Below are positions 13,149 through 60,894 of a stretch of 64,000 nt of DNA, piece after piece. Each line of letters opens with the position of its first letter. Within the stretch, counting starts at the first letter, position 1. A model generated the notes under the pieces. The model was not told the DNA's origin. It saw nothing but the letters and a program-made list of their open reading frames with translations, and did no database searches. This DNA is from Bactericera cockerelli (lineage: Eukaryota; Arthropoda; Insecta; Hemiptera; Triozidae): positions 1,362,020-1,426,019 of the forward strand of contig CM044961.1 in assembly GCA_024516035.1 (NCBI GenBank). Reading direction: 5' to 3'. The position numbers and the translations under genes are program-made.

Positions 13149-13510
13149 CATGAGCCAGCCTCCAATCTGGACGAGGAGGTGAAGGAGCTGGAGAGACTGA
13201 AGCCTCCTTCCGGTGGCAATGAGGGCCGCAACTTTATGGGTGATGGCCGCAACTTTATGAGCGAAGGCCGCAACTTTATGAGCGATGGCCGCAACTTTAT
13301 GAGCGAAGGCCGCATGAATGGGGGTCCCAAGACTCATGAAGGCCGAAAATCTGATGAGCGATGAGCGAAATACTATGGCCGGCGGCCGAAACTCTGCGAC
13401 CGATGGCCGCAATTCTGTCGGTGAATCGATGGCCGTGATGAAATCTCACGCGGCCATGTACAGCAATGTGAACGGCCGCATTCAGGGACAGGCCGAAACC
13501 AAACAAGAAG
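13149..13510 (+). CDS. Gene 1 internal exon A with GRNFM heptapeptide repeats
   Basis: The acceptor is 'tctgttccag' ending at 13148; the donor is GTTAGT at 13511. The exon begins HEPASNLDEEVKELERLKPP, then has four 21-bp units encoding GRNFM followed by GD, SE or SD, then a more diverged RN-rich stretch ending in KQE. It leaves in phase 1. Read literally, the frame stops at TGA 13362. Removing one A from the AAAA at 13346-13349 joins it to the open second half and restores the repeat as GRNLMSDERNTM, so I read this as a single-base assembly error or a fresh indel. No Cys is present. The upstream exons with start codon and any signal peptide were not found. Function is unknown; this is a low-complexity, probably extracellular or secretory-pathway segment. 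Confidence 0.65.
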
Positions 13511-13590
13511 GTTAGTGACGATTTGTATTGTAGAACTCCTTATACCAGTATAAACCAGAAGAAGGTTAGTGACTATTTGTATTGTAAAGT
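13496..13590 (+). repeat. Duplicated exon-A end plus splice donor
   Basis: 'caagaaggttagtgac' followed by 'atttgtattgta' at the exon end is repeated about 50 bp downstream as 'agaagaaggttagtgac' and the same intron bases. This creates a second GTTAGT donor at about 13565. Confidence 0.75.
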
Positions 13591-13598
13591 TTCAAACA

Positions 13599-13819
13599 TA
13601 ATAATATAATAATAATACTCTTCAGTGGAAGGTAACCACCAGACGAGGTTAATGCTCAAAGAATTTTTTACCACCTAACCCTCAGAGTCTTACTATTAGA
13701 AGGTCAAATACTAAAATAAAGGATGAAAATCAATGCATAGGGTGGAATTCGAACCAACGGATCCCTACACTACCTGGATTGACAGACTAGCGCGTTAACC
13801 ACTTGACTACGAGTGCACT
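13599..13819 (-). repeat. SINE-B (tRNA-derived)
   Basis: On the minus strand the head reads GTGCACTCGTAGTCAAGTGG with B-box 'GGTTCGAATTCCACCC', followed by the family tail ending 'cactgaagagtatta'. Many copies lie in this window. Confidence 0.85.
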
Positions 13820-14249
13820 ACATAACCACAACCAATCAAAATAAAGAGATATAGTTTTCTTCATAAATGGATATAGGTATTATTACTAAAATTATTGTTA
13901 ATGCTACATTTCTTACACAAAATTTCTGGAAGCAATAGTAATACTGTTGTTCCGATTAACTCTTAAATAACAATAAAAAAACAATATTTACACTTGTTCT
14001 TCCTACGGTGTTTTTTTTATTTTAAAATTAAATAATAGAGTATTGTTACACAACATTACCAAACGGATTTTTAGTTTCCTTATCCCATAGAAAAGAAAGT
14101 AATGGAATCAGCCAAAAAAAAAAAAAAAATAGACGCAAAAGCACACAATCTATGCATGTTAATTTTTAGAAAACTACCATGTTTAAAAAAAAAGTGTAGT
14201 TCTTGTGCCCCGGAACAACTTTCGCATGTACATACATTCCGCTCCGGCC

Positions 14250-14317
14250 GGGATTCGAACCCGCAACCTCCGGGTCGGTAACCAACGCTCTGAACCACTG
14301 AGCCACAGAGATCGGCA
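14250..14317 (-). repeat. tRNA-like SINE head next to the exon B acceptor
   Basis: On the minus strand it reads TGTGGCTCAGTGGTTCAGAG, then GCGGGTTCGAATCCCGGCC, an A-box and a B-box. It ends about 30 bp before exon B. There is no continuing acceptor-stem pairing, so it is not called a tRNA gene. Confidence 0.6.
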
Positions 14318-14346
14318 TATTGAACGAACCAATGTTTTATTTCCAG

Positions 14347-14474
14347 TGAACAAAAATGGAGAAACCTACGCGAAGATCCGCCAAAACATCGAAGCTAAAA
14401 ATGTGGACAACTCACCCACTCCTGAGACCAACATCATCACAGCTGTGGACATACCCGGGCAGAACATTCATAAG
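14347..14474 (+). CDS. Gene 1 exon B
   Basis: The acceptor 'atttccag' and donor GTGAGT at 14475 define a 128-bp exon. It enters in phase 1 (joining to exon A gives Val) and leaves in phase 0. The peptide starts NKNGETYAKIRQNIEAKNVD and ends in PGQNIHK. It is polar, has no Cys and no recognised domain. The 3' end plus donor is amplified as four 18-bp units downstream. Phase agreement with exon A and the clean codon pattern support it. Function is unknown. Confidence 0.75.
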
Positions 14475-14536
14475 GTGAGTAACATTCATACAGTGAGAAA
14501 TATTCATTCGGTGAGTAACATTCATATAGTTAGCAA
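14462..14536 (+). repeat. 18-bp repeat of exon-B end and donor (4 units)
   Basis: Units read 'acattcataaggtgagta', 'acattcatacagtgagaa', 'atattcattcggtgagta' and 'acattcatatagttagca'. The first spans the real exon/intron junction. The unit length is divisible by three, and the frame stays open as NIHKVS, NIHTVR, NIHSVS, NIHIVS. Confidence 0.85.
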
Positions 14537-14696
14537 CAATTTTTACAATTTTTTTTAACTGAAACCTGTGCAGTAAAATGTACAATAATATATCTAATTA
14601 AATATCTCAAACTTGTCTTAAAAAACTTTTAATGTCAACTGCTTTTCAGAATGTATTACAAATAATGTAGTTCCATTTAAGATACCAAACTTGACC

Positions 14697-14853
14697 CCCA
14701 ATGCGGCCGCCCCCGGTAATGATAAAAAATATAAACCTATTAGAAAAGGTTTCCCCCTCAATATAATGGTACACGTGTTTATGGCATTTAAAAAGAAATT
14801 AATTCGTTCTCTAAATATTTCGAGTTGTTCCTTTTTTTTTTTGGCGGACCCTG
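14697..14853. mobile_element. MITE fragment related to 24702-25146
   Basis: It ends in 'ggcggaccctg' followed by TA and shares the 'ttccccctca.tataat' interior with the complete element at 24702-25146. The other end is missing. Confidence 0.6.
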
Positions 14854-14948
14854 TATATTATACAGCTACAAAGCCCGGCTTAGATATGACCTCTACAGTC
14901 TGTTGTTGTCGTGATGCACTAGGAGAGTTAGGGTGTTATGCAGAGTCC

Positions 14949-15067
14949 TCACTGTAGGGTCGTCTGTTTGAAGCGTCTGTACGCATGCGCATTCAGATGT
15001 CTCTTTAATAAATCATTGTCAAGGTCGAAGTATTCCCTACAGCAAGCTCGAGACCACCCTACAGTGA
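14949..15067. mobile_element. Short inverted-repeat element
   Basis: 'tcactgtagggt' at 14949 is mirrored by 'accctacagtga' ending at 15067, giving a 119-bp sequence with ~12-bp terminal inverted repeats. It lies 62 bp upstream of exon C. Confidence 0.45.
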
Positions 15068-15129
15068 ACCCTATAGGGATAACTAAATCGTCTCTGCATA
15101 CCAGCCTTAATATTTTTCGCTGTTCCTAG

Positions 15130-15254
15130 GTCTACCACCAGCGCCATCCAGCGGACACTTCTGACAACAACATTCTCAACGTGTTGAACGTCCTGGAGCC
15201 CTTCATTCGAAACGCAACATGGACTACTCGAGTGCCATGGATCAAGCGCCCCTG
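15130..15254 (+). CDS. Gene 1 exon C
   Basis: The acceptor 'ttcctag' at 15129 and donor GTGAGT at 15255 delimit 125 bp, entering in phase 0 and leaving in phase 2. The peptide begins VYHQRHPADTSDNNILNVLN and continues LEPFIRNATWTTRVPWIKRP. It contains one N-glycosylation sequon (NAT) and dibasic or basic motifs, compatible with a secretory-pathway precursor. It joins exon B in frame. No domain is recognised. Confidence 0.75.
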
Positions 15255-16780
15255 GTGAGTGAAAACTGAAGCTCTGCGCATGTGCATGCAACACTGTGAA
15301 ACACTGTAGAGTTTGAATCATAGTTGTGATTATTTAATTAAATTATATTTTAATTTATAAATAGGTGTTTATTTTATGAGACAATTAATTGCAACACTTC
15401 ATGTATAGTTTTCCTCCTGTTTGGGATTGCACAATATGTAAATGTATAAAAAAAAAATTTTTTTTTTTTTTACAAATAAAATATTTCTCCCAACTTAGTT
15501 TGTACGTATAGTTTGTACTTATTATCAAAATATTTTTATATGTCTCGGATTCGAATTTTGATGTAACTTACTTTACCGACTTGAGTTTCGTCTATTTCAT
15601 GATATTATCAAAGGAACAAAAAATTACGTTCGGTTGTCAAATATAATAACTCAATATAAAAAAGTAAAGTTTGTAATTATTTAAAGTTTAAATAGCTCTT
15701 TATTAGGTGAAGCAGGATAAAAAATTGTATTTGTATTTTTAAAAGTAAGTCAATTTTTAGGAGTAATTTGTTAATTTAATAGCTGTGTAAAAGTGATTTA
15801 TTAAAATAATTATATTATTGACTGTAATAAAATGTCTTTGCGTATACTTAGAAATCCTCATACCTTATTATTTTCCTTTCTCTGTTCCGATATTCTCTTT
15901 TCCTATTATGTAGAATAGTTCTGATGTCCATAGAGAGATTAGAAAATTGTCCACCTTTGCTTTGCACGTTTTATAGGACAGTATTCTTTTTTTTTTTTTT
16001 TTTTTTTTAAACTATGACATCTAGATTTATTAACAGTAATACACATCTTCCATAGTAGAACAAACTGGAAGTGTGCCCAGCATTCTGGTATTCTGTATTT
16101 TTCTGGTTTTTCCGATATGTGTTTCTTGGATCGGAGCGGTTGCTCAGCTCTTCAATGGAAAACTCTCATTTAAAATATATTGTCACTAGAGCAAGCAAGC
16201 AATGCTATCCACTAAAAAAATGTGACATTTTATACAAATTCAATCAAGGAATATTTACAATTATAGAAAGAAAACATGATCAAGGGTAGTGCAAATGCAA
16301 ATGGCATTCTTTACCGTGTAATAATAACAAGAAAGTAGCTAGCTCTTTATCTTTTTATCTTTTTTCAAATTTGTCTCTCCATCTCAACAAGGTTAGCATA
16401 TAGGATACAGGCAACTACTTTTTATTTATTTTTTTATCATCGACTCAGTGTTTCAGACAGGATAAGTTGAAAGTTTGACGTTTGAAATCAGAAAAGGGTT
16501 TTGTTGTTGTTGTTGTTGATGTTGTTACAAGCTGTCAATTCAACTGTTTCTCCTGTCAAGTACAAATATAATTATTATGTACTCACATCACATGACGAGG
16601 AGGTGTTTTTCCCAGTAACCTCCTCATGGAAGTGTAGTATCCAACCGGTGGGTGGTATGAAAGAAAAACAGCTTGAAGTTTTCCTCAGAAGCAAAGACTT
16701 CGTTTAAAAGTAACTTTTTCTGTTCTACTCCATCTTTTCTTTTGACTAACCTTGTTAGAACAACATTTTTGAACATGAAC
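15255..16780. other. Intron sequence, no gene seen
   Basis: AT-rich intron with a poly-T run near 15988-16008 and a GTT microsatellite at 16501-16520. Open frames at 16071 and 16501 show no splice context or codon pattern and are not called. Confidence 0.6.
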
Positions 16781-16797
16781 TATGTTTTACGAAACAG

Positions 16798-17243
16798 CGG
16801 GTTTCAAGCGCTTAGACGTTAGAAAGTTTGTTGTGTACGTTAGAAAGTATATTGTGTACGTTAGGAAGTGTATTGGGTACGTTAGAAAGTGTATTGGGTA
16901 CGTTAGAATGTGTATTGCATACGTTAGAAAGTGTATTGTCTACGTTAGAAACTGTATTGTATACGTTAAATGTGTATTGTATACGATAGAAAGTGTATTG
17001 TATACTTTAGAAATTGTATTGTATACGTTAGAAAGTGTATTGTGCACGTTATAATGTTTATTGTGCACGTTAGAAAGTATATTGTGTACTTTAGAAAGTG
17101 TATTGTATACTTTAGAAAGTGTATTGTATACGTTAGAAAGTGTATTGTATACGTTAGAATGTGTATTGTATAAGTTAGAAAGTGTATTGTATACGTTAGA
17201 ATGTGAATTGTGTACGTTAGAAAGTATATTGTGTACTTTTTTC
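16798..17243. repeat. 20-21-bp minisatellite (about 21 units)
   Basis: The unit is 'gttagaaagtgtattgtata' with drift, in head-to-tail array. Long open frames on both strands (YVRKCIV / NTLSNVY) follow from the period and are not genes. Confidence 0.95.
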
Positions 17244-17373
17244 ACATTAAAAATCTCTCAAAGCATTAAACATTTTTCTTCTATAAGACGCTTTAACTCG
17301 TCAGTAGACATGTCGTTCGAGCCGATTCTTCTGATATTAGAGTGTACAGTTTGCAGGTCTTCAGGTAACTTAG

Positions 17374-17420
17374 TAGGGAATCGGTGATCTCGACTGAGTC
17401 TGACAGAGCTGGAGGGACAG
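17374..17420 (+). CDS. Gene 1 candidate microexon (47 bp)
   Basis: GC-richer 47 bp between a weak acceptor 'aacttag' at 17373 and a strong donor GTAAGG at 17421. Entering in phase 2 from exon C, it reads C-RESVISTESDRAGGT and leaves in phase 1, exactly the phase needed by the 32-bp candidate at 18878. A better-looking acceptor at 17356 would run into a stop after ten codons. The phase chain C to here to 18878 to exon D is the main support. Confidence 0.4.
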
Positions 17421-17836
17421 GTAAGGAGGATCTAATTAGTGCAAGAAGATTTTTTTTTAAGATACTTTCTATTTTTATAAATCAACAAACATTTTATCAA
17501 AAACAACAAAATGAAAGAACAATAAAAATAAACAAAAATTGAAAAATGTTCATCAATTTTTATGAATACATTAAAAATAGTATTTAAAGATGAGAAGTGA
17601 GAATGTGTTTTAGAGAGAGAATATGACCACAACGACAGTTTGGTGGAGGGATACGTTTGAAAAATTAAACATTTTGATGAGCTTAAAAGTCAAACCCTTT
17701 GATGAATATAGCATGACATGGTGAGTGAAAAGGAATACCTAACTACAAACTCCGTCAAAAAATATCAGAGCACCAAGTTTTCGCTAAAAGAACTATATGG
17801 AATTGTTAGTTCAAAAAAGGACAAGAAAACACCCCA

Positions 17837-18047
17837 GCCAGCGTCGATGGCGTGTTGAATACACCAGTTCTCATTCAGTCACTGAAGTTAAGCAACATCT
17901 AGTGAGGCTAGGACTTGGATGGGTGACCATTCAAATTCGAACCCTCGTGATGCTGGCTATTTTTACCCCTACTCAGGTTGAATAAGTTTGATTTGGGTAG
18001 CTGGTTTGGGAGTTTTTCAGCGATAAGACCCCCGTCGTGATAAGACC
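17837..18047 (+). repeat. SINE-D (5S rRNA-derived), clearest copy
   Basis: The head reads 'ccagcgtcgatggcgtgttg', 'aatacaccagttctc', 'gaagttaagcaacat', 'ggacttggatgggtgacc' and 'cgtgatgctggc'. Order and spacing follow 5S rRNA (box A, intermediate element, box C, closing stem). Then comes the family tail 'tttgggtagctggtttggga'. This shows that the family arose from 5S rRNA rather than from a tRNA. Confidence 0.85.
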
Positions 18048-18182
18048 AAAAAAACATCCCATAGATAGTAGGTATTTGTACTTGTACTTGTATTTTTTTT
18101 ATTTTTTTAAGTAGGAAATTGTGTTAGCAGGAAACGTGGATATTGTTATTTTGACATTTTCATGTCTTTGCTCTGGCACATA

Positions 18183-18370
18183 ACCAAAATTATGTGACGA
18201 AATTATGTAACGAAATTATGTAACGATATTATGTAACGATATTATGTAACGAAATATTGAATTGTAAAGGAGAGAAGAGGGAAAGTGTGTGTCATGCGCA
18301 CAATGGCGAAGTATTGAATTGTAGAGGGAGAGAAGAGAGAAGGTATGTGTCATGCGCACAATACGAAATT
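18183..18370 (+). repeat. 13-bp and 57-bp tandem repeats
   Basis: Five units of 'gtaacgaaattat' (18194-18255) run straight into two copies of a ~57-bp unit that starts 'attgaattgta' and contains 'tgtgtcatgcgcacaat'. Confidence 0.85.
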
Positions 18371-18493
18371 TGGTCAGTTGGGTTTTGGACCTTGAATAGT
18401 AAAGATGAAAATGTCCCAATGGTTGCAGACTCGTATGCAAGCGTTTTTTTAAACAAAAATTTAACATCGCTTTCAACTGCATGGTCATATCAG

Positions 18494-18590
18494 TAGTCAC
18501 CGTGGCAGAGTGAGTTAGCGCGCTAGGCATTGTACGCATGGTGACCTGGGTTCGATTCCCAGCGGGGCAGGAATTTTTTTATCAGAATTT
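18494..18590 (+). repeat. SINE-C (tRNA-derived) head
   Basis: 'agtcaccgtggcagagtgag', 'ttagcgcgctaggcatt' and B-box 'gggttcgattcccag'. After 'cggggcagg' the sequence departs from the longer copies at 32038 and 34011. Confidence 0.8.
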
Positions 18591-18598
18591 GTCTACAC

Positions 18599-18785
18599 AA
18601 TATATACCCATTACCCAGTGAATGACCAACTGTGGCTATGTACCTCTTTGATGGTTGATCGCACATAGAAATATGTGGTTCAGGACGAGCCAACTTTGAA
18701 ATAAAGTTGGCTGGAGACCAGCACTCACCCCTCCAGCTGTAGCCAGTGAATGACCAACTGTGGCTATGTACCTCTTTAGCCGTAT
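18599..18785. repeat. Dispersed repeat shared with 63590-63710
   Basis: 'ggttgatcgcacatagaaat', 'aggacgagccaactttgaaa' and 'ctccagctgtagcca' occur here and at the right end of the window. A 'ccagtgaatgaccaactgtg' phrase occurs twice inside this copy. Confidence 0.7.
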
Positions 18786-18877
18786 TTTTCTTTCTAACCA
18801 AAGTGAATTCAACTGGAATAAAATAAACGAACTGGAAGAAAGTTATTTATAATAATTTTGCATTGTTTCTCTAACAG

Positions 18878-18909
18878 ACTCAACACCTAGTCGCCCAAGT
18901 CGCGGTGCA
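18878..18909 (+). CDS. Gene 1 candidate microexon (32 bp)
   Basis: A strong acceptor 'gtttctctaacag' and donor GTAAGT at 18910 enclose 32 bp. Entering in phase 1 it reads D-STPSRPSRGA and leaves in phase 0, which fits exon D at 30180. Phase 2 entry directly from exon C would hit a stop, so the 47-bp candidate at 17374 is needed between them. No expression evidence. Confidence 0.5.
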
Positions 18910-19377
18910 GTAAGTTGTTCCTAATGTACCATGGGGCCATTGACAATGTTCCTTAGCACTTTGTTCTGAATAAAAAAATATCATCAGGCAATCAGCTTTG
19001 AAGTTTATCCAGGCAATCAGCTTTGAACACCTTGTATGCACACTGTATGATTGTGTGTATGTACCTATAGAATATCCATATTATACATATTATGCTTGTA
19101 TGATAGGTATCCAACATTTGTTACCTGAGCGAAAATCGATTTTCAAATTGACACATCTGTCTGTCTGTTCCTTTCAATGAAAAGATAAAAGATAACGATT
19201 GGAAAGGGTGAGCTTGTTATTTTTTATAGCGTTATTTTTATTTGTATTTTTTTCTAGTGTCATTCTTATTTTTTCAGGTCGTAGTTTTTTCGATCGTTAT
19301 TTTTATTTGCGTGCTTGGAGACAGGTAGGAAGCGCGAATTAGGTTTGTTATATTACCGCAGAGAGTGAGACAATCTA

Positions 19378-19450
19378 TTTTGAAACAACAACAACAAAAC
19401 AACAACAGCAAATACAACAACAACAGCAAATACAACAACAACAAATAGAA
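19378..19450. repeat. (AAC)n microsatellite
   Basis: Run of 'aacaacaac' with AGC interruptions. The open frame on the other strand is poly-Leu and is not a gene. Confidence 0.9.
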
Positions 19451-19786
19451 CAGTGACAGGAGCAACAGGAAGCTCATTTGTCACTGACGTGACGCAGGAC
19501 CGTAGCTCCTGTTTTTTTTCATTTTTAATTTTATTTTTACAGGGTCCGCCATATTTATTTTTTATTTTACAAAGTAACGGGTTAAACTTATGTGTGAAAT
19601 TTGATTATGAACCATTTTTTTATTTTTAATTTTAACATATTAACGGGGTTCATCCATGTTTATTTTTTATAAATTAATTACAAACAAAAGGCTTCTACTA
19701 AGATATAATATAAGTACTTAGAACCATTTTAAAATGCCTATATTTTCGAAATTAGAGCTTCATAATGATTTTTTCTTTGATGACAT

Positions 19787-20309: not shown

Positions 20310-20357
20310 GCTAGGAAACGTGGTATGGCATTTATTGTAACACTCACCATTCACTTA

Positions 20358-20690: not shown

Positions 20691-20699
20691 ATTAATGTG

Positions 20700-21720: not shown

Positions 21721-21721
21721 A

Positions 21722-24312: not shown

Positions 24313-24420
24313 TAATATTACAATTAAATAAATATAAAAATAATATTACAATTAAATAAATATAAAAATAATATTACAATTAAATAAATATAAAAATAAT
24401 ATTACAATTAAATAAATATT
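24313..24420. repeat. 28-bp AT-rich tandem repeat (4 units)
   Basis: The unit is 'atattacaattaaataaata' plus 'taaaaata', in perfect head-to-tail copies directly at the SINE-F end. Confidence 0.9.
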
Positions 24421-30323: not shown

Positions 30324-30380
30324 AGAAAACTGCTGAGTGTGTTCTGGACAGGGCATAATAAGAGTGCCCCACCTCTTTAT
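30324..30380 (+). repeat. Partial duplicate of exon D inside its intron
   Basis: 'gctgagtgtgttctggacag' followed by 'aagagtgccccacctc' repeats the exon-D interior 'gctgagtacgtgttctggac' and 'aagagtgtcacctc' about 105 bp downstream, with a few differences. It lies in the intron, just after the donor. Confidence 0.7.
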
Positions 30381-31722: not shown

Positions 31723-32037
31723 TTTTACAAGCCGCGCCGGCATGCGGCCGTATAAATAAAGTAGTTGTAAAAAAAGCATACACTTGAACATCAAGACTAT
31801 CCTTGAAAAAGTTAGTCTAGATGTTGTACTCATTTATTTATTTCCTGAGTGTGGTCTGTTTTATGTACTTGTCTTCATTTTATGTGACCAAGAACATGAC
31901 ACGTGTTAGGATTTTCAAGAGATAAAATTTCTTCTAATAAAACGGACATGGTGAAATTACTTTCCTGTAGATAGATAAAAGGTCTATGTAATTTAAATAA
32001 AATGGTAGTTAATGAAGAGTTATTTTCTTTAATCAGG

Positions 32038-32320
32038 TGAGTCACCGTGGGCGAGTGAGTTAGCGCGCTAGGCATTGCACGCACGGTGACCTGGGTTCGA
32101 TCCCCATCGGGGCACGATTTTTTCTGGTCTGTTCTTGGGTGTTCGGGGTCCACTCATACCTAGTGAGGAAAAATGAGTAGCTGCTTTAATGTGAGCAGCG
32201 ACCAGTGGCGGAATTATAGGCATAAATAAGATTATTAGGATATTAAAGATATGGAAAAGTCCTATAATTCTGCGCTACCCACTAAGAATTGTGATAAAAT
32301 AACACAGAGAAACACTTTTA
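32038..32320 (+). repeat. SINE-C (tRNA-derived), long copy
   Basis: The head 'gagtcaccgtgggcgagtga' and B-box 'gggttcgatccccatc' are followed by the conserved body 'gaggaaaaatgagtagctgc', 'gaccagtggcggaattat' and 'tgcgctacccactaag'. Confidence 0.85.
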
Positions 32321-32788: not shown

Positions 32789-32890
32789 ATGAGTCGGGAG
32801 GAGGCCATTACTCTACTGGAAGACATCAAGCTCTACCTAGGAGACATACAGGACCACTACGAGCATGAGAAACTCAAACACCAGATCAAA
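32789..32890 (+). CDS. Gene 1 exon E
   Basis: The acceptor 'attttctgttttcag' at 32788 and donor GTAAGC at 32891 give 34 codons in phase 0/0. The peptide begins MSREEAITLLEDIKLYLGDI and ends HEKLKHQIK; it is a helix-forming acidic stretch continuing exon D. The end 'caccagatcaaa' plus the donor is amplified about 11 times downstream. Confidence 0.85.
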
Positions 32891-33125
32891 GTAAGCCAAA
32901 CACCAGATCAAAGTAAGCCAAACACCAGATCAAAGTAAACCAAAACACCAGATCAAAGTAGACCGAAACATCAGATCAAAGTAGACCAAAACACCAGATA
33001 GAAGTAAGCCAAACACAAGATTACAATAAGCCAAACATCAGATCACAGTAAACCAAAACACCAGATCAAAGTAAGCCAAACACTATTTAAAAGGAAGCCT
33101 AACACCAGATCTAAGTAAGCCAATC
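32879..33125 (+). repeat. 22-23-bp repeat of exon-E end and donor (about 11 units)
   Basis: The unit is 'ccagatcaaagtaagccaaa' plus 'ca'. The first unit spans the exon/intron junction. Later units drift (GTAAAC, GTAGAC, ATAAGC) but at least four keep an exact 'aaagtaagc' or 'gaagtaagc' donor. Confidence 0.9.
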
Positions 33126-33150
33126 ATTGGCTTACTTGTAACCCGTCACC

Positions 33151-34568: not shown

Positions 34569-34659
34569 TTGCAGAACTAGATTCTAGGGATAAATTTTAG
34601 AAGGTAGGCTAGTTGATTTTTTTACATGAAAACTTAGGTTCAGATATTTCTGGACTTTT

Positions 34660-35237: not shown

Positions 35238-35409
35238 TTCTCCCGCAGTAACGAGATCCCACAGTCGGGGCTCGGCAGCTTTCCCATGAACAGTTTGAAG
35301 CGGGCGGGTGGTGACTACGACAACACAGAGCTGAACCAAGTGCGACAGCAGCTGATGAAAGCCAACTACAACAAGCGTACTTCCAGCCAGATCATCAACA
35401 ACTTGGCCC
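35238..35409 (+). CDS. Gene 1 exon F
   Basis: The acceptor 'ttttacgctttcag' at 35237 and donor GTGAGT at 35410 give 172 bp, entering in phase 0 and leaving in phase 1. The peptide begins FSRSNEIPQSGLGSFPMNSL and contains two Lys-Arg pairs (NSLKR-AGG and NYNKR-TSS), possible prohormone-convertase sites if the protein is secreted. It ends TSSQIINNLA. Joining to exon G gives Gln. The last 13 coding bases plus the donor are tandemly repeated seven times downstream. Confidence 0.85.
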
Positions 35410-35588
35410 GTGAGTATATGTATAACAACTTGGCCCGTGAGTTTATGTATAACAACTTGGCCCGTGAGTATATGTATAACAACTTGGCCCGTGAGTATAT
35501 GTATAACAACTTGGCCCGTGAGTATATGTATAACAACTTGGCCCGTGAGTTTATGTATAACAACTTGGCCCGTGAGTATATGTATAAT
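35397..35588 (+). repeat. 27-bp repeat of exon-F end and donor (7 donors)
   Basis: GTGAGT donors stand at 35410, 35437, 35464, 35491, 35518, 35545 and 35572, exactly 27 bp apart, each preceded by 'aacaacttggccc'. The frame remains open through all units (NNLAREYMY or NNLAREFMY per unit), ending at a stop soon after 35590. All donors give the same exit phase. Confidence 0.95.
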
Positions 35589-39405: not shown

Positions 39406-39905
39406 GTGAGTTTTTTTGGGGTGAAATCAACCTTTTTTGTTAACGGGAAATACCTTTTTTGAATGAATTCTTGAGACGAAAAAAATATACTTTGTTATAA
39501 CAGCTAGATAAGGAGATGTTCGAGTAGTCTTCTTCTTAAAAAAAAAAAACCTTTTTTTACTCCTTCTTAAAGAAGTACCAGGGATTGGAATGCAAGACCT
39601 CTGAAATATAAACCGTTACACCAAGATTCCTATTACCTGCTGATGAGAGCGAATAAACTCAAAACAGCAGGCTGTCCAATAGCCTATTCCAGAAACACTC
39701 TCCACTCTCATAATCTCCAAATCTTATTTTCAACAACGCTCTTCGATTTATTAATTTTAACGCAACAACCAATCAGAGTGCGTTGTGTCACGGTTGAAAC
39801 GGAGATTTGGAGAGTGGGAAGTCTTTCTAGATCAGGTATATTCTGATATTCATGTATATCTAGTAAAACTTCTCACTTTTCTCTTTATACTGATTTAACC
39901 CTCAG

Positions 39906-40007: not shown

Positions 40008-40440
40008 GTGAGATGGGAGTGTATTTATTTAAATAATTGACTTAGGACGAAAACAATACGGCCCTTAGGGCCCAATTATGAAAGTTATCATATTTGTGTT
40101 AATCACTTTCATTACCACCCGACTCTGCTTCTGTCCATGTACAGGTACTTTAATGTGCATTAGTAGTTTGGAATTTTGGAATTGGAACAAGATTGGAATA
40201 AAAATACCTATTAGTTTTAAGAACTAGATCTTCGCTAAATGAGTTTCATGAGTGTCACATTATGAAATAGGAATAAAGTTGATTAATCAAGTCGGAGATT
40301 CAACCAATCACAGTGCACTACAGCCCAAGTTAAGGGTTAGAGTCCAGTTAGATTAATAATTTAATCCTGTTTTATAATTCGGCCTTCAGACATAAAACAT
40401 TGTGAAACACTAAACCTTAAAAAAAATACCATCGCCCTCA

Positions 40441-40651
40441 AATAATAATAATAATATCACCTTATTTATACTGCCCGATTAGGACTATTAAGTCCCATTA
40501 TTCCAGCAGTAAGCCCAAGATATATTATTATGTGGTAAAAATCCCAAATGGGAGGATAACTTGTCATGTCCAGGCTGGGTTTCAAACCCGTGACCTCTGG
40601 TATATCTGGATTAAGAGAGTGCCACCTGTACCACTGAGCTACTGGGACAGA
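40441..40651 (-). repeat. SINE-A (tRNA-derived), complete
   Basis: ATT tail at the left, tRNA-like head at the right (TGTCCCAGTAGCTCAGTGG on the minus strand). It ends about 70 bp before exon I. Confidence 0.9.
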
Positions 40652-40722
40652 CTATGTAATGTACGATGTAAATAAACGATGTAAATAAGAAACATAATTA
40701 TGTACATCATTCTCCTTTCCAG

Positions 40723-43271: not shown

Positions 43272-44119
43272 GATTCAAACCCACGTACTCCGGATCAGGA
43301 AACGGAGATCCTGATCTAAAGAGGAGTGGTTTGAAAGCTTCTACAAACCTTGCGAAGAAAACTTCAACATTTGTAAACATTAATCCAGCGAAAATACAGA
43401 AAGTTTTACCTTTTTCAGAGAATAAAAAGAATCCAAAGGCGCAAGAATATACGACCATGTCCGACATTTTTCGGGAAATGTCGGAGAAAACTGCCAAAAT
43501 GGCCGAAAAATCAAAAGAAATGTCCGAACAATTTGTGTATCTGTCACAATTATTCATCAAATTATCAACGAAAACTGAAAATGGGCAGCAAGGAAGCCCA
43601 CAGATTTTTGGAAATTTCGCGGAGATGTCGCGGAAAATTGCGGAACTTTCGGCGAAATATGCGGCAATGTCTCACAAGTCAGAAGACATGTCCACGAGTT
43701 TTAGCGAAACATCTGAGAAACTTTTCGAGAGATCTCAGAAAATGTCGGCGGCTCTGGCAGAAATGTCGAGAAAAATCGCGGAGCTTTCTGAAAAATCTGC
43801 GGACGGTTTCGATAAATCCGTTGCTCCGATAGGCGGATCCAAGAAAGCTATGGACGTTTCGAAAAAATCTGTGCTGGTTGGAGAATCTGAAAAAACTGCG
43901 GAGGGTTTCGATAAATCTGTGGCTCCGATAGGTGGATTCGATGAATCTGTGGACGTATCGAAAAAAAATGTTGTAGAAAAACGAGGGGATAAAATCACAG
44001 GAGTTGTCAAGAGCGGGGCCAAAGGGTTTGTCAAGTTTTTGATTTTGAAAATTCTGATCGGGTTTCTCGGGTTTGTGGCCATTATTGCGATTTTGTTTTT
44101 CTGCTTCTGTAGACGATAA
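43272..44119 (+). CDS. Gene 1 exon J: alternative last exon with coiled coil and membrane helix
   Basis: The acceptor 'taatttccacag' at 43271 is followed by an uninterrupted 848-bp frame ending in TAA at 44117. Entering in phase 1 from exon I it reads RFKPTYSGSGNGDPDLKRSG and onward, about 282 codons. About 50 residues in, heptads with Met or Leu every seventh residue begin (MSEKTAK MAEKSKE MSEQ..), forming a long predicted coiled coil; AEMSRKIAELS occurs twice and GFDKSVAPIGG twice. The last ~25 residues are a hydrophobic helix (FVKFLILKILIGF to FFCFC) ending in Arg-Arg, a membrane anchor with almost no cytoplasmic tail. It would make a membrane-tethered isoform of about 794 residues counted from exon A. 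AATAAA lies at 44706. It could instead belong to a separate gene, but phase and acceptor argue for gene 1. Confidence 0.7.
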
Positions 44120-44705
44120 ATTTTTCAACATTGGTTATTGTCTTTTGAATAATTTTTTATCTGCAAAATATATAATTATTCGTCTGATGTAGAATTTGGA
44201 TTTTAATTGAATAACGAGTAGGTGTATAACATTAACAAAAGATAACTTAAACTAAAATAAGATGTAGGTGAGCGATTACATTTTAATTTTAAAAATGTTT
44301 GTTCTGAGTTGTTTTTATTTGTGTGAAGTAGGATTTTTACCATGGAAACGTGGGTATAGAATCTTGTAGGTACATAAAAACACAATATTTCCGATTTCGA
44401 ACAAAATTTATCGGAAGTAGTATACAAAAAAATTTAGGCATATTTTTCGAGCAATTTTAGGTATTAATATTAAATTAATTTTATTTTAAACGTGTGCCAA
44501 AATTTTAGCTAATTAATCATAATATGTATTTTAGGTATAGGTACTTACTTATTTTTAGAAAGCACAAGAAATTTAATACTACCTATGTACAATTATAAAT
44601 ATTCAACAGTAATATTTTTTATGTGCAGGTACGTCACACGTATCTGAAAGTATATAGGTACTATATGTATAACTAGGTAAACACTATGTACAAAAAAAAG
44701 ATAAT

Positions 44706-53922: not shown

Positions 53923-54344
53923 TTACCCATATAATTTTGTTACCACTATTTTTAAACTTCATTCCCCCAAAACTGATAGGTTAAGCTGAGGAAGAGTAGG
54001 CTCGTCCTCTTAGTTTTTATACAAAAGTTGATGGGTACAAAATGGGTGCGAAAGGGTTGAACTAGAGGTACTAAGGTACAAAGTAGAGTCGTAATTTTAA
54101 TTAATTTATTATTTTTATAACCTTAAAATATCATGTCTTTTTAAATAACTCCCTAAAAAATATACAGGGTGGTCGCAAATTCGTCATCACCCTGTTTACA
54201 TTGTTAGATGTGAAACTCTAATGAGGGATGTTACAGTTAGAGTTAAAGTTGGCTCACCTTATTCAATCAGAGTTTTGTCTCCGTGCTGTAATGCGTAGTT
54301 CAGAGGGACAATTTTTTCAACAACAAAATAAATTGGTGACGGAC

Positions 54345-54450
54345 TTGTAATCAGAGGTCGGTAGTTCAAGACCCAAGTGAAGCAAATATTTATTAAAGCG
54401 ATTTCGTTTAGTTGTGATATCACGATTGTGATTAACACAATTAATATGAT
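54345..54450 (+). repeat. SINE-E, 5'-truncated
   Basis: 'gacggacttgtaatcagagg', 'cggtagttcaagacccaagt' and tail 'agttgtgatatcacgattgt'. Confidence 0.65.
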
Positions 54451-54459
54451 AACTAACTA

Positions 54460-55510
54460 ATATTATAAAAGGGTCGACAATGCTTTAACTTTAGTAAATC
54501 AACTCTTAAACTAAGCAGAATAGTCTGTCTCTTGAGGAGTGACAACCCTGTTAACTCTAACTGTCACATAATATGTGTGGGTAGATAGCTAAACATGGTA
54601 AGAGATAAAAAAAAAAAGATCATTAGATTTAAAATGTCTTTTTTTCGACATGAATTGAATACCTAATAATAAGTCTGTAATAACAGAGTTTCAGAGGGAA
54701 CTGGTTACATTGTTCATCATACAATCCAATCCAATACTGTATGTATACAGTACGAATCCAATCCAATACGAGTAAGAATCCAATCAATAATTAACTAAAA
54801 ATTAAACAAAACAAAAAAATGTCACCATCATCATCATTGAAATGTCACCCACAAAATGATATTTCAATCTAGTTTACCTATACATATACAAGGAGGCTAA
54901 TAATAGATAAGATATATTTATTCACAACAATTAGTTGTAGTTTACAATAAGTTTACAAAAAAATCAATAGAAATAATATTAAAATTAACAAGAGAACCCA
55001 GAACCAAGTTTTTCTTTGTCTCTTATCACTTTTTGTCATCTACCCACAGATATATCATCTACTTTTCTTTTCTTAAAATTACCTCCCAATACTTCAAACT
55101 TACAAACTTACATGGATATGACTAAATTTAAAAATAAAATAGTATTTTAAATAAAAATACCTACGAGTATCAAGAGATGATGCATAAAATTATTAAGTTA
55201 TGTTTTGTGTCCATAATTTTATTTTATTTAAAAAACTAGAAAAAATATTTTATTATAAGAGAAGAATTAATTTTTTTAAATCAATATTAAGGGTGTTTGG
55301 TGTAAAATGTGATAAAATATAATGAAAAAATTAATATGATAGCAGATTATTATTATTATAAACCAACCAATGTCGAAACCTCAACCCTGAGGAAAAGGTT
55401 GAGCAATGCCAACCCGAGTTGAGAAAAGGTAAAGTGAAAAAAGAAGAAGATTTTAAAATTCAAATGCTTCAATGGATTAACTATAGTTAATAACTTACAC
55501 AGTTAGATAA
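54460..55510. other. Intergenic sequence, no gene seen
   Basis: AT-rich. Nothing recognisable. Confidence 0.55.
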
Positions 55511-55512
55511 GG

Positions 55513-55702
55513 GACCGACCTCACTAGCTTGATGGATAAGGCGGCGGACTAGTGATCTGGAGGTCGGTGGTTCAAGTCCCAAGTTAAGCAAAAATTTGAA
55601 ATCGGACCAAAAAAATATTTTTTTACAAAAACGAACACAATTATTGGTAAAGCGAGTTGTGATATCACGATTGTGAACAACAAAAATATGATAACTTAAC
55701 TT
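55513..55702 (+). repeat. SINE-E (tRNA-derived), reference copy
   Basis: The head reads 'accgacctcactagcttgat', 'ggataaggcggcggactagt' and 'gtggttcaagtcccaagt', with A- and B-box spacing like a tRNA. The tail is 'gcgagttgtgatatcacgat' and 'atatgataacttaact'. Confidence 0.75.
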
Positions 55703-56249
55703 GGTTAGCAAAGGGATAAGTTTCAAGCCTAGAAGCTTTAACAATTCCTTTGTAATGCGGAGGGTATGAGTTCGAATCCTTAGTTGGGCGAACTTTTACA
55801 ACAGAATATTTCTGCTATGAAATGATGCACTAAAGTTGGTAACTTTATCATTCTACTATCAGGATACAATGACCTATTTTTACGTTTTTGTGGACTTCAT
55901 TAGTGGATAAAGAATTCCCAATTATTCTTTTAATTTACTAAACTTTTTATTAACTTTACAGAAATTTAACAGAAATTTCGTATACATACAATACCCTTAA
56001 AATCTATTATAATATACAAATTATGAAATAAATTAATTTTATATACGAAAATGATGTTCTTATTTTCTTATACAGGTAACGAGGACTTTTTTGGCTCTGT
56101 ACTTTGGATGTCGGGGCCTACCCTAGCCTCGTGAGGACAATTTGGGGTAGTTGTAGAATGGGGAACGAACAGTGGCGGCATTACGAGATTGATGATTAAT
56201 GGCATTATTTTAGGGTGTGATGATATCTCGTATATCATCACACCCAAAA

Positions 56250-56558
56250 GCGCGCGATTAGCTCAGTGGTTAAACATTCGCTTGCCATGCAGAAGGGCCC
56301 GGGTTCGATTCCCCGTGCCGACAAAAATTTGTATTCTTAATTTGGTTAGTACTGTTTGTAAGGGATACCTTCCTGTGCGCTCGTGTTGAAACAACTCCTC
56401 AGCATTGGGAAGTATTGTGTCACTTCTCGCCCATCAGAGGGGAGGCATACTACGGGATGGGTAGGGTTCAACACAGACCTCAAGAGTCTACAGTAGCTCC
56501 TGTTTCATGGCTACGAAATAAAAACGGCTATGAAGCACTCATCTTTAAAAAAAAAAAA
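56250..56558 (+). repeat. SINE-F, full length, tRNA-Gly-like head
   Basis: The head 'cgcgattagctcagtggtta', 'cgcttgccatgcagaag' and 'gggcccgggttcgattcccc' resembles tRNA-Gly (GCC anticodon in the right place), but the acceptor ends do not pair, so it is a SINE. The body runs to 'atggctacgaaataaaaacg' and a poly-A tail at 56550. Confidence 0.85.
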
Positions 56559-56805
56559 AAAAATTGGAATATGATGGTTGGTTGGAGATATAATGCATAA
56601 ACATTAGTTCTCGTAATATCGATGCTACCTACTAAAAATTGTGACATAATAATACCAATAACTAGCTCTTAAAGTCCTCATCAACAGAGTCTTATCAGAA
56701 AGACATAATAATATTATTGTGTCTTATATCACAGACAAAATTGTCCATGATAAGATCATAGCGTTTGATTACGGAGACCAAATGTCATCATCAGCTGTTG
56801 TCAAA

Positions 56806-56850
56806 CTGTTGATGGCGCGTTGTGTACATCGGTTCTCGTAGGATCAAAGT
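56806..56850 (+). repeat. SINE-D head fragment
   Basis: 'gttgatggcgcgttgtgtac' and 'atcggttctcgtaggatcaa', cut soon after. Confidence 0.6.
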
Positions 56851-57119
56851 TGTCAGCACCTCCCTCAGTTTGGCTGCCTCTGATTTATGACGTCACACAA
56901 TTCCATTAACAGCTTTTGTAAATTTATTGTGAAAATAAGCAGTAGCACTGAAGAACTTATTTGCGAGCTATGAAAGATTAATTTTCAGATTATTTATGAC
57001 TAACCGAACACGTGCTTAGCTTCAATTATCGAAAATAAACAGACCTAATTCTATTTATGTCAAGGAAAATCTAAATTGGTTCAGCTCTAAATTAAAAATT
57101 GGTTTCAAATATAATTGAT

Positions 57120-57235
57120 TTTCAATTTGAAAATAATGTTGTGAGTTTCAATTTGAAAATTATGTTGTGAGTTTCAATTTGAAAATTATGTTGTGAGTTT
57201 CAATTTGAAAATTATGATTTGTGCTTAAATTTCCA
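57120..57235. repeat. 26-bp tandem repeat (4 units)
   Basis: The unit is 'gtgagtttcaatttgaaaat' plus 'tatgtt'. The half-unit 'tttcaatttgaaa' is nearly palindromic. Confidence 0.9.
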
Positions 57236-57624
57236 AATTGACAGTTGGTTTCAAAAGACAATCTTCTTTCTTTTCACTCGTACCTGTGTAACTCTTAATG
57301 TCTATGTAATTAATTTTGCTTCAATTAAAATCATTAAATTTTGCTAAAAATAAACATATTGAAATATTTTTGGTGTACAGGATGGTATGAGTGTTTTTTT
57401 TTTTTAAATGATAAAGTGATTTAACTCTCGAAAGTTTTATACTGGGTGGTATCAACACATTGTGCTCCCATGGCCATCTTGCAGAAGCTCAAGAGTCTTC
57501 TACCGAAACACCACACCTACTTCCACATCTCTGAGAGTGTAGTTTGCGTGAAGGTGAAACAAAAAATTATCTATCTTCAGTTCTAGGACCACATTTTTGG
57601 ACACCCTGTAAGTTTTTCACTGTA

Positions 57625-57838
57625 AATAATAATAATAATAATATCGCTTTATTTATACTGCCCAATTAGGACTATTAAGTCCCATTATTCCAGCAGTAAG
57701 CCCAAGACGTATTACTATGTGGTAAAAATCCCAAATGGGAGGATAACTTGTCATGTCCCGGCTGGGTTTCGAACCCGCGACATCTGGAATCTCTAGATCT
57801 ACAGAGTGCCGCCTTTACCACCGAGCTACCGGGACAGA
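57625..57838 (-). repeat. SINE-A (tRNA-derived), complete
   Basis: Full copy on the minus strand with ATT tail at the left and the head at the right (TCTGTCCCGGTAGCTCGGTG). Confidence 0.9.
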
Positions 57839-58036
57839 CCTTATAAATATTGCTTACGGTCGAATAAATAGTTCTAAAAAAGGATTATATTCAAGATAAG
57901 CCAGACTGTCTCACTCAAGCGGTATATATTGCACTCTGATTGGTTGAATCTCCGACTTGAGCCTCCTCGGTAATACTCGTACATTATCTCTTTACCTTAT
58001 AAATCTGCTCACAATTTGAAGAAATAAACCATATCT

Positions 58037-58235
58037 GCCAATGTTGATGGCGAGTCAAATGCACCGGTTCTCGTGAGATCACTGAGGTTAAGCAACGTCC
58101 ATCGCGGTGAAGATTTGGGATATACTGGCGTTTCCGGCCAAATCCAAGCTATGTGAGGTTAATGTGGGTAGCAAGTTTATGAGTTTCCTGCGAATGGAGG
58201 GTAAGACTGTATTTGAAAATGACGTTACACATAAA
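58037..58235 (+). repeat. SINE-D (5S rRNA-derived)
   Basis: 'ccaatgttgatggcgagtca', 'aatgcaccggttctcgtgag', 'atcactgaggttaagcaac', then 'gtgggtagcaagtttatgag'. Ends about 150 bp upstream of gene 2 exon 1. Confidence 0.8.
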
Positions 58236-58382
58236 TTAATGTAATATAGCATCATCGTGAACGATGGTAGCCAGACAGTCAATGCTGATCTACTCCTTAT
58301 TTATAGTCCCCCAGCCAGACTCTCTTCTATGTATAATTGTATTTGAATCAATATTGATAATAATGCCAATTCCCAACAACAG

Positions 58383-58642
58383 GACACCAAGCAGTCGGCC
58401 AAAAATGCACCATAACCAGATCGACGCCAGCCGGATCCTTTTCACCATTCTGGCGATCATCCCTGTCATCCTGAACCCTGGCGACGGTCATCCCGTCACG
58501 GAAACCCCAGGACCAGGGATCCGGCAGTCGCCTCTGATGGGAAAGCTGTGCCGTCGGGTGATGACGGTGCCCGACATCAACGCTTTGACGGATCCCGAAG
58601 AAATGATTCTGCTGCACAAGAACACCATTGTGCAACTCACAG
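58383..58642 (+). CDS. Gene 2 first coding exon, secretory signal peptide
   Basis: A possible acceptor 'ttcccaacaacag' ends at 58382, with ATG at 58405 in context 'ccaaaaatgc', so 58383-58404 would be 5' UTR. The donor is GTAAGG at 58643 and the exit phase is 1. The protein begins MHHNQIDASR followed by a hydrophobic core ILFTILAIIPVIL and a small-residue end NPGDG, a classical signal peptide of about 28 residues. The mature part starts HPVTETPGPGIRQSPLMGKL, then CRRVMTVPDINALTDPEEMI and HKNTIVQLT. It joins the exon at 59545 in frame. The family is not recognised. Confidence 0.8.
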
Positions 58643-58856
58643 GTAAGGGAACTTTTCAGTGGGCCCTTTATTATTATTATATTATTATTCAACACTTTAT
58701 TAAATATAAATGGACATATTATGTACAATACAAAAAAATATTTTTACAACAATAAAAATAAAAAAGAATAGAAAAATATATATAAACATATCTCCTGACT
58801 AAAGGGCGGGGCCATTGCCTATGGCAATCTTTTCCACACAACCCTTTATTAATTTA

Positions 58857-59118
58857 GATATCGCTTTCAATTGCATGGTTATATCACGGCGGAGGTTTTA
58901 CCCTCCATTTGTTGGAGTCTCACAAACCAATCAAACCAGGTACTCAAATTAACCTCACCTAGCCTGAGTGGGGCCGGAAGTAGTCAGCGGGTTTGAATTT
59001 GTCATTTGATTGGCTATACAAGTCCTAGCCATACAAATCCTAGCCTAGCTGGACGTTATTTAAATTCCGTGACGGAACGAGAACTGGTGTATTCAATGCG
59101 CAATCGACGCTGGCTAGT
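58857..59118 (-). repeat. SINE-D (5S rRNA-derived) with small insertion
   Basis: Reverse complement: 'tcgctttcaattgcatggtt' tail, 'ggagtctcacaaaccaatca', and head 'aacgagaactggtgtattca' with 'cgcaatcgacgctggc'. Longer than other copies because of extra sequence near 58990-59040. Confidence 0.7.
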
Positions 59119-59174
59119 GGACCATTAAAACTGTAATACCCAGAGCGGATGGGGCGATAAATGCACCGGTTTTC

Positions 59175-59527
59175 GTAGGTTGTAGCTTGCCTATCCCGTA
59201 GTATGCCTCCCCTCTGATGGGCGAGAAGTTACACAATACTTCCCATTTAGGTGAACACGAGCGCACCGGAAGGTATCCCTTACAAATAACTCTAACTAAA
59301 TTAAGACTAGTAGGTAGTTCTGCAAATTTTGAAGAATCCGGTCGGGAGTTATCGCAGAACAGACAGACAGACAAACAAACAGACCGACAAACGAAAGCCA
59401 AATAGTCTATTATGCAAGTTAAAACAGAACCTCACTGTGTTTGATTAGTTACAATTTTTTTGTCGGCACGGGAGATGAAACCCGGGACCTTCCGCATGGC
59501 AAGCGAGTGCTTAACCACTGAGCTATT
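59175..59527 (-). repeat. SINE-F interrupted by ~144-bp insert, next to acceptor
   Basis: The SINE-F body at 59175-59305 and head at 59450-59527 are separated by an insert with (ACAG/ACAA)n repeats (59306-59449). The head ends 17 bp before the acceptor of gene 2 exon 2. Confidence 0.75.
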
Positions 59528-59544
59528 ATTCCTCACCTTTCCAG

Positions 59545-59799
59545 AGAGGTCCACCATTCTCAACAAGGCCGCGATGAAGGCCATGCGCTCCAAGTGGAAG
59601 TACAACATGACGTCACCCAAGTACCGCCGCACCATCTCCCCCCACCCCATCCTCGTCAACACCAGCATGTCCTCCAAGGAGATGAGGGACCTCCAGTTCA
59701 TGCGGTGGCGAGAGCCTTTCCTGATGAAACCGCAGGAGCTGCAGTACTATGTGGACCTGAGGAGGAAGTTCCACTTCAACTATCGACGACAGTGTCCAG
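59545..59799 (+). CDS. Gene 2 exon 2
   Basis: The acceptor 'ctcacctttccag' at 59544 and donor GTAAGT at 59800 give 255 bp, phase 1/1, joining exon 1 in frame. The peptide starts RSTILNKAAMKAMRSKWKYN and continues MTSPKYRRTISPHPILVNTS, then SKEMRDLQFMRWREPFLMKP and DLRRKFHFNYRRQCP. It has two N-glycosylation sequons (NMT, NTS) and a possible KYRR cleavage site. The stretch from the acidic 'SKEMRDL' to 'DLRRK.....R.CP' faintly recalls the region before the cystine knot in Noggin/Trunk-type ligands, but I would not assign it without a search. Confidence 0.85.
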
Positions 59800-60890
59800 G
59801 TAAGTCGATATTAATGAATATCACCGTAAGTACAAGGAGTGAAAGGTTGGAAGGACCTCCAGTGTATGATGAATGTACAGGAGCTACAGTACTATGTGGA
59901 CCTGAGGAGGAAGTTCCACTTCAACTATCGACGCCAGTGTCCAGGTATGTCGTTATTAATGAATATCACCTTAATGCCAAGGAGTGAAAGGTTGGAAGGA
60001 CCTCCAGTTCATGCGGTGGCGGGAGCCTTTCCTGATGAAACCCCAGGAGCTGCAGTACTATGTGGACCTGAGGAGGAAGTTCCACTTCAACTATCGACGC
60101 CAGTGTCCAGGTATGTCGATAGTAATCACCTTAATTACAAGGAGTGAAAGGTTGGAAGGACCTCCAGTTCATGCGGTGGCGGGAGCCTTTCCTGATGAAA
60201 CCGCAGGAGCTACAGTACTATGTGGACCTGAGGAGGAAGTTCCACTTCAACTATCGACGGCAGTGTCCAGGTATGTTCATATTAATTAATATTACCTTAA
60301 TGCCAAGGAGTGAAAGGTTGGAAGGACCTTACAAGGAGTGAAAGGTTGGAAGGACCTCCAGTTCATGCGGTGGCGGGAGCCCTTCCTGATGAAGCCGCAG
60401 GAGCTGCAGTACTATGTGGACCTGAGGAGGAAGTTCCACTTCAACTATCGACGCCAGTGTCCAGGTAAGTCGATATTAATGAATATCACCTTAATGCCAA
60501 GGAGTGAAAGGTTGGAAGGACCTTACAAGGAGTGAAAGGTTAGAAGGACCTCTAGTTCATGCGGTGGCGGGAGCCCTTCCTGATGAAACCCCAGGAGCTG
60601 CAGTACTATGTGGACCTGAGGAGGAAGTTCCACTTCAACTACCGACGACAGTGTCCAGGTAATAATAATAATAATAATATCGCCTTATTTATACTGCCCA
60701 ATCAAGACTATTAAAGTCCAATTTTTCCAGCAGTAAGTCAAATATGCATAATTATGTGGTAAAAAAACTGCCAAATGAAAGGCTAACTTGTCATATCCCG
60801 GCTGATTTTCGAACTCACGACCGCAGGAGCTACAGTACTATGTAGATCTGAGGAGGAAGTTCCACTTCAACTATCGAAGACAGTGTCCAG
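59800..60890 (+). repeat. Tandem array of exon-2 3' end plus donor (six extra copies)
   Basis: The block from 'gacctccagttcatgcggtg' through 'tatcgacgccagtgtccag' and its GT donor, with ~45-80 bp of intron, is repeated. Donors stand at 59945, 60111, 60271, 60465, 60659 and 60891, after the original at 59800. Copies 2 and 7 lack the first part of the block. Copies are about 95% identical to the exon by eye. Periods (145, 166, 160, 194, 194, 232) are not multiples of three. No convincing acceptor lies between copies. Confidence 0.9.
60661..60822 (-). repeat. SINE-A inserted at the sixth donor copy
   Basis: The ATT tail starts directly after 'tgtccaggt' of copy 6. The SINE is cut in its B-box region ('ttttcgaactcacgacc') and continues straight into copy 7 ('gcaggagctacagtactatg'). 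Confidence 0.8.
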
Positions 60891-60894
60891 GTAT

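Follow-up and report, generated by a model that had tools for sequence, protein, structure and literature searches.

Analysis of a 64,000-nt stretch of the Bactericera cockerelli genome (GenBank assembly GCA_024516035.1, contig CM044961.1, positions 1,362,020–1,426,019; hereafter the window, in whose coordinates all positions are given) revealed two genes in which tandem arrays are commoner at splice donors than in the intron background of the same DNA. Four exons of gene 1 (A, B, E and F) carry donor-spanning minisatellites, unlike exon 2 of gene 2, whose seven copies are best read as a tandem exon duplication under coding constraint and look like new exons in the making. This coding constraint is a new element, and it recasts one of the five donor arrays as exon amplification. 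We infer that local tandem duplication is frequent here and is filtered by selection, with donor-spanning arrays being tolerated, a reading that we hold to be probable, if far from secure.

Judged by the protein relatives of both genes, the window is psyllid nuclear DNA. The joined translation of gene 1 (341 residues, from the end of exon C to exon I, then K) matched 72 proteins at E ≤1e-3 among 1529 candidates. The closest relatives are from the psyllids Cacopsylla melanoneura (P0001, 78%) and Cyamophila willieti (P0002, 79%), followed by the whitefly Bemisia (42%), and all matches with a species name are insect proteins. Three proteins matched gene 2: P0073, P0074 from Diaphorina citri and P0075 from Cacopsylla. 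A search of prokaryote genome contigs and viral contigs with P0001 gave no relative, as expected for an insect gene, and neither the two genes nor exon J had a Pfam match that passed the cut-offs. The gene 1 product is an uncharacterised insect protein.

Exon borders were set by tblastn of six relatives against the window, together with GT/AG positions and reading phase. This yielded 11 ortholog-supported donors (gene 1 exons A–I, gene 2 exons 1 and 2) and 12 acceptors (gene 1 exons A–K, gene 2 exon 2), replacing the "about thirteen internal exons" of the first-pass annotation of this DNA. Residues 1–46 of P0001 had no match within the window, and any earlier gene 1 donor falls outside these counts. 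Compared with Cacopsylla, the reading frame changes near 13355 in exon A, where a 7-bp unit is present twice, and at 15202 in exon C, where there is one base fewer; both changes may be real or may be sequence errors.

Table 1. Repeats, exon copies and related features of the two genes. Arrays were called with Tandem Repeats Finder (TRF) where indicated; UTR, untranslated region.
Feature	Positions	Strand	Evidence
Gene 1 exon A	13149..13510	+	P0001 matches in two frames, TRF, DNA
Exon A donor-spanning repeat, 2 copies, period 54	13496..13598	+	
Exon B (14347–14474) donor-spanning array, ~4 x 18 bp	14463..14538	+	TRF, ortholog junction
Possible decayed partial copy of exon D in next intron	30332..30366	+	blastn E 0.003
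Exon E (32789–32890) donor-spanning array, 11.1 x 22 bp	32875..33123	+	TRF, ortholog junction
Exon F (35238–35409) donor-spanning array, 7.1 x 27 bp	35397..35587	+	TRF, ortholog junction
Possible decayed partial copy of exon G in next intron	39498..39531	+	blastn E 0.001
Gene 1 3' UTR segment repeated, 3 x 44 bp, 69% match, with AATAAA	47468..47591	+	TRF
Gene 2 exon 2; array copy 1 is its 3' part	59545..59799	+	P0073, P0074, P0075 matches
Gene 2 copy 2, possible 108-nt phase 1-1 exon, preceding intron 37 nt	59837..59944	+	
Gene 2 copy 3, possible 129-nt phase 1-1 exon, preceding intron 37 nt	59982..60110	+	
Gene 2 copy 4, possible 129-nt phase 1-1 exon, preceding intron 31 nt	60142..60270	+	
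Gene 2 copy 5, possible 129-nt phase 1-1 exon, preceding intron 65 nt	60336..60464	+	
Gene 2 copy 6, 129 nt, preceding spacer 65 nt, two in-frame TAG before conserved part	60530..60658	+	
Gene 2 copy 7, about the last 71 nt only, behind repeat insertion	60820..60890	+	

All five arrays named by the first-pass annotation are present at the donors to which it had assigned them (Table 1), and the repeat of the 3' UTR with its AATAAA was likewise recovered. At the four gene 1 arrays the ortholog junctions coincide with the first donor copy (AETKQE/INKNGE at A, GIHK/VYRQ at B, KHQLK/FSRNN at E and NNLA/QSKYPS at F, the slash marking the junction), and the proteins of the other psyllids show this first-copy junction alone. 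By this comparison the first copy is the ancestral donor, still intact. Beyond it, the arrays offer different extensions. The second donor of array A, after 13564, scores the same as the first, and its extension meets an in-frame TAG at the second codon; this array is not among the TRF calls. Array B supplies two further GT donors, in frame and with an open extension. The GT is lost in two of the 11 units of array E, where the 22-nt unit shifts the frame of the extension. Array F holds seven donors of equal score, all in frame and open, each unit adding REYMYNNLA-like residues. TRF match levels are 97% at F, which is thus uniform, 81% at E and 77–80% at B. The units at B and E can be written as 12–16 exon bases plus the six intron bases paired by U1, the phase of a tandem unit being partly arbitrary. 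Array E terminates in a palindrome (33115–33135) with 10-base arms around one central base.

Donors were scored with a weight matrix that serves for ranking only. By this measure the arrays hold further donors of at least 3 bits (one at A, two at B, five at E and six at F), and donor strength shows no clear difference between exons with arrays (7.4–12.9) and exons without (6.0–12.6). No relation between arrays and weak donors was seen.

Association with donors was measured in three ways. In a strip test, the bases from -18 to +12 around each donor were compared with the next 250 bases, a copy being counted at 20 or more matches of 30. A downstream copy was found at five of the 11 donors (A, B, E, F and gene 2 exon 2), whereas among 6365 positions within introns the rate was 5.15% (binomial P 1.3e-4, ranging from 1.3e-4 to 6.4e-3 over seven thresholds). 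The intron null omits low-complexity strips, with the filter set just below the lowest donor strip, as well as exonic positions and those up to 60 bases from an exon; its neighbouring positions are not independent of one another. Acceptors, scanned upstream in the same way, gave no copy at any of the 12 sites and one at the relaxed threshold of 18/30. That all five hits should fall on the 11 donors among 23 sites has a probability of 462/33649 = 0.014 by hand arithmetic. Secondly, TRF arrays were hand-picked from 121 rows by dropping simple, A/T-rich and same-array rows, which left 24, of which 22 lie inside 10–61 kb. These 22 non-simple arrays cover 8.9% of that region and overlap four of the 11 donors (B, E, F and gene 2; 0.97 expected) and none of the 12 acceptors (P 0.005 by array rotation, binomial P 0.012). 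Thirdly, exon tails of up to 120 nt were searched for matches of at least 22 bits within 300 bp, which brought in exons D and G beyond the five arrays: seven of 11 exons had a downstream match and none had an upstream match, the corresponding null rates being 18% and 17% of 500 segments.

The claim that arrays differing in unit and age share the donor side therefore holds within the window, at a rate above the intron background. The accompanying statement that ordinary minisatellites would not be expected there was too strong, since the array coverage found would by itself lead one to expect a hit at roughly one of the eleven donors. The strongest competitor of the filter is chance in a minisatellite-rich genome: the pattern would have been noticed because exon ends are readily recognised, the window would have been chosen on account of it, and the genome-wide donor rate would equal the intron background. 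The high array density, the single locus, the framing of the question after the pattern had been seen and the variation of P with threshold and method all speak for it. Set against them are the five donors to no acceptors and the seven downstream to no upstream exon tails, and we find chance a doubtful explanation, though one that deserves serious weight. Targeting of tandem arrays to donors is possible but unproven, the window test being post hoc and confined to one locus.

Gene 2 was described in the first-pass annotation as a further exon end duplicated into its intron. The seven donor copies are indeed there (after 59799, 59944, 60110, 60270, 60464, 60658 and 60890), but the copies are more than an exon end lying in an intron, as the protein sequence is preserved in most of them. 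All seven encode ELQYYVDLRRKFHFNYRRQCP in their final 63 coding bases, and the five copies that have the preceding 39 bases (1, 3, 4, 5 and 6) all encode FMRWREPFLMKPQ there. In copy 7 the last 21 codons keep the protein sequence and the changes are silent. Over the 34 aligned codons ten changes were counted, all of them silent (P ~5e-7, or 2e-6 with a stronger transition bias); a single replacement that was also scored (CGC to AGC) is an artefact, as copy 7 actually has AGA there, still arginine. The two other reading frames show no silent and seven replacement changes. For copies 2–6 alone there are at least seven changes, again all silent, a result reached in one of 60000 simulated runs. 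Pairwise silent divergence is 0–0.39 over the 63 nt (21 pairs) and 0.15–0.24 over the 102 nt (10 pairs), and replacement divergence is 0 save for 0.020 in three pairs with copy 7, which reflects the codon artefact. Copies 1, 2, 4 and 5 are each followed by a 37-nt spacer, and these spacers differ from one another at 2–9 of 37 sites. Together with the silent divergence, this suggests that the copies had time to change and yet kept this part of the protein.

Copies 2–6 are bordered by an AAG/GA acceptor and a G/GT donor, both in phase 1, with lengths of 108, 129, 129, 129 and 129 nt, so that any subset of them would join in frame. The spacers in front of them measure 37, 37, 31, 65 and 65 nt. 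Copy 5 could also be entered through an earlier AG, giving an intron of 37 nt and an exon of 157 nt that is not divisible by three. The reading frame is open in copies 2–5, interrupted by two stops in copy 6 and partial in copy 7.

A tRNA-like repeat (60660–60820) lies between copies 6 and 7 and joins at the copy borders; similar repeats were recognised by eye near 12340–12560, 40440–40660 and 57620–57840. Directly behind copy 7 is a long terminal repeat (LTR) element (60887–63436), whose LTRs look alike by eye and whose open reading frame (61104–63140, minus strand, 678 aa) shows zinc-knuckle and protease-like motifs in our own reading. The element is flanked by CCAGGTAT at 60887–60894 and 63429–63436, and the presence of CCAGGTAT at both ends suggests that it landed on a splice donor copy.

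Under local duplication with a selective filter, tandem duplications would arise locally and often in this psyllid genome, and selection would set where arrays persist. An array running from the 3' end of an exon into the intron would spare both the 5'-most donor and the coding sequence, and could persist and grow. Within a coding exon an array would survive mainly with a unit divisible by three, and one that spans an acceptor would be purged, because under the AG-scanning principle the first AG reached would put intron sequence into the message. Selection against arrays in coding exons and across acceptors would thus make donors the exon edge where arrays survive. Such a filter would have left the four donor-spanning minisatellites of gene 1, with D and G as possibly older, decayed traces. 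In gene 2, the duplicated piece would have been long enough to include an internal AG/G as well as the donor, making each copy a potential phase 1-1 exon, and the copies would then have been retained as protein-coding, that is, as exon amplification by tandem genomic duplication. They are probably used singly or alternately and not all together, because ordinary splicing would seem to require more than the 31–37 nt of the first spacers.

The filter accounts for the contrast of five to none between donors and acceptors. Both TRF arrays lying wholly within coding sequence have units divisible by three (21 bp in exon A, at 13224–13314, and 99 bp in exon J), which fits its prediction, and the frame-breaking 22-bp unit and the stops within the donor arrays are expected if the first donor alone matters.

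Several observations weigh against this account. The excess of donors over intron interior is less well explained by it, with five seen and 0.6 to 1 expected, and the 7-bp repeat of exon A, if real, is not divisible by three. In gene 2, copy 2 is shorter by 21 nt, its FMRW part being lost and changed so that it reads DLQCMMNVQ; copies 2–6 differ from copy 1 before the FMRW part (GVKGWKDLQ for SSKEMRDLQ); copy 6 has its two in-frame stops just upstream of a part that is still unchanged; and copy 7 comes without a phase 1 acceptor. Three of the five spacers are very short, and introns of 31–37 nt are below the usual insect length. Silent-only change could also be explained by repeated copying or gene conversion from a functional first copy. 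The altered 5' part, common to copies 2–6 and absent from copy 1, speaks against such copying or conversion, for that part only. The test is moreover a post hoc one on a single locus, and the use of the copies in mRNA is a prediction from DNA.

Alternatively, donors might be mutational hotspots at which a transcription- or U1-linked process (R-loops, pausing or RNA-templated repair) starts the duplication. The excess over the intron background, the varied unit sizes and ages at one type of position, and the way in which the B and E units can be written as exon bases plus the six-base U1-paired stretch (subject to the arbitrary phase noted above) would all suit such a process. A weak hint comes from the exon G/H junction, where the predicted Cyamophila protein P0002 reads SLSHVLSHC, suggesting a donor-side duplication, compared with one copy in the window and in Cacopsylla. 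However, many arrays of the window lie away from any known donor, no RNA signature (spliced or polyadenylated copies) was seen, and unit lengths from 18 to ~194 bp point to no fixed breakpoint. We consider a hotspot improbable.

Less probable still is that the additional donors were themselves selected, whether for alternative protein tails, regulated unproductive splicing or stronger exon definition. Array F, with its seven equal and open in-frame donors, and the open in-frame array B would be suited to this, and human IFI6, where downstream repeat units act as splice donors, offers a precedent (PMC4526556). Selection for alternative donors, also raised in the first-pass annotation, does not fit array A, stopped by its in-frame TAG, or array E, with its 22-nt frameshift and its two units that have lost GT, and the donor scores do not set exons with arrays clearly apart from the rest. 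An assembly artefact, with long reads stuttering over or collapsing repeats, could draw on the two frame changes of gene 1 as sequence errors and on the uniformity of array F, but is very unlikely given the many substitutions between copies at E and B and the silent-only differences in the aligned codons of gene 2, which are unlike errors.

Weaker signs of duplication, which had been reported at exons D and I, were upheld in part. The trace at D is present but modest, as is one at G that the first-pass annotation had not named, 10–13% of random intron segments doing as well (about 10% for G); that at exon I (E 0.04, 20.2 bits) lies within chance, being matched by 23% of random segments. Over a wider range, blastn found a match upstream of exon E at 32006–32043 (E 0.002), on the A/T-rich acceptor side and beyond the 300 bp of the tail test. 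Other matches were not used as evidence: a 13-base one for exon C at 17719, internal repeats of exons A and J, an inverted match in J, and one at 60683 for exon 1 of gene 2.

For 17 consensus array units the donor motif was scored with the same ranking matrix and compared with simple letter shuffles. On the plus strand the score was unusual for the composition only in the units of B, E and F (P ≤0.04), while the units at 34658 and 57116 were suggestive (P 0.07). Low shuffle P values were also obtained at 24313 on both strands and at E and 52769 on the minus strand, with scores of -5.2, -0.6, 3.8 and 5.1. The proposal that donor motifs in other intron arrays mark hidden exons was not supported by this scoring. 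The minisatellite at 57116–57239, upstream of gene 2, has a 26-bp unit with GTGAGT and may mark a 5' exon that was not seen.

Exon J (43272–44120) is a long open reading frame in phase with exon I, with a likely membrane helix at its end by eye. The start of its one relative, P0076 (234 aa, 41%), almost coincides with its own, and exon J may for this reason be a nested gene and not an alternative last exon.

If donors attract or keep tandem arrays, this would be a simple and testable route to new donors, introns and exons, and psyllids would be a model in which a single gene shows the process at several ages. Should targeting be absent, gene 2 still provides an exon amplification that is recent and bears a mark of coding constraint. 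In a bolder and, to our mind, rather unlikely version, psyllid 5' splice sites would be birthplaces of arrays that lead from donor minisatellite to tandem exon: short arrays would give optional donors, whereas longer ones would capture an AG and become selected exons whose ultra-short introns force one-at-a-time use.

A literature search found, under the terms used, no report of a genome-wide excess of tandem arrays at donors, although work in subscription journals could be missed by it. Psyllid assemblies are described as rich in transposable elements (PMC12203342, which covers three such assemblies); the terms "tandem repeat", "simple repeats" and "minisatellite" are absent from the main text of that paper. 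Tandem donors a few bases apart form a separate class (PMC2423196). In human duplicated genes, tandem repeats at exon-intron boundaries alter splicing (PMC2812944). The boundary position is shared with the arrays described here, but those repeats are variable ones in recently duplicated genes, and the word "donor" does not occur in the text of that paper. Exons 4a and 4b of OGDH are mutually exclusive, with an intervening intron limited in length (PMC7969005). Gene 2 resembles them in having tandem exon copies with a spacer that would hinder joining of neighbours, as suggested by its 31–37 nt spacers.

For gene 1, the closest parallel is human IFI6. The arrays at A, B, E and F each span the donor that belongs to the exon and carry further copies of its GT, and the IFI6 minisatellite reportedly starts at the donor. 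The IFI6 array supplies several splice donors through its downstream repeat units (PMC4526556; cited in PMC2915984) and, like the gene 1 arrays, lies at an exon 3' end with units that repeat the donor site. It is a single array in one human gene, whereas gene 1 has four, whose further donors are predicted from DNA. For gene 2, the parallel is a recognised way of gaining introns, in which exon pieces with AGGT undergo tandem genomic duplication (PMC3443670). Copies 2–6 are likewise duplicated exon segments with spacers bordered by GT and AG, and the exon piece with AG/G and donor creates predicted intron borders between the copies. Gene 2 differs from that route in that the duplicated piece includes an existing donor, is present in seven copies and has largely kept its coding sequence, the extra copies showing a sign of purifying selection at the protein level in the aligned codons alongside a 5' part that is not conserved with copy 1.

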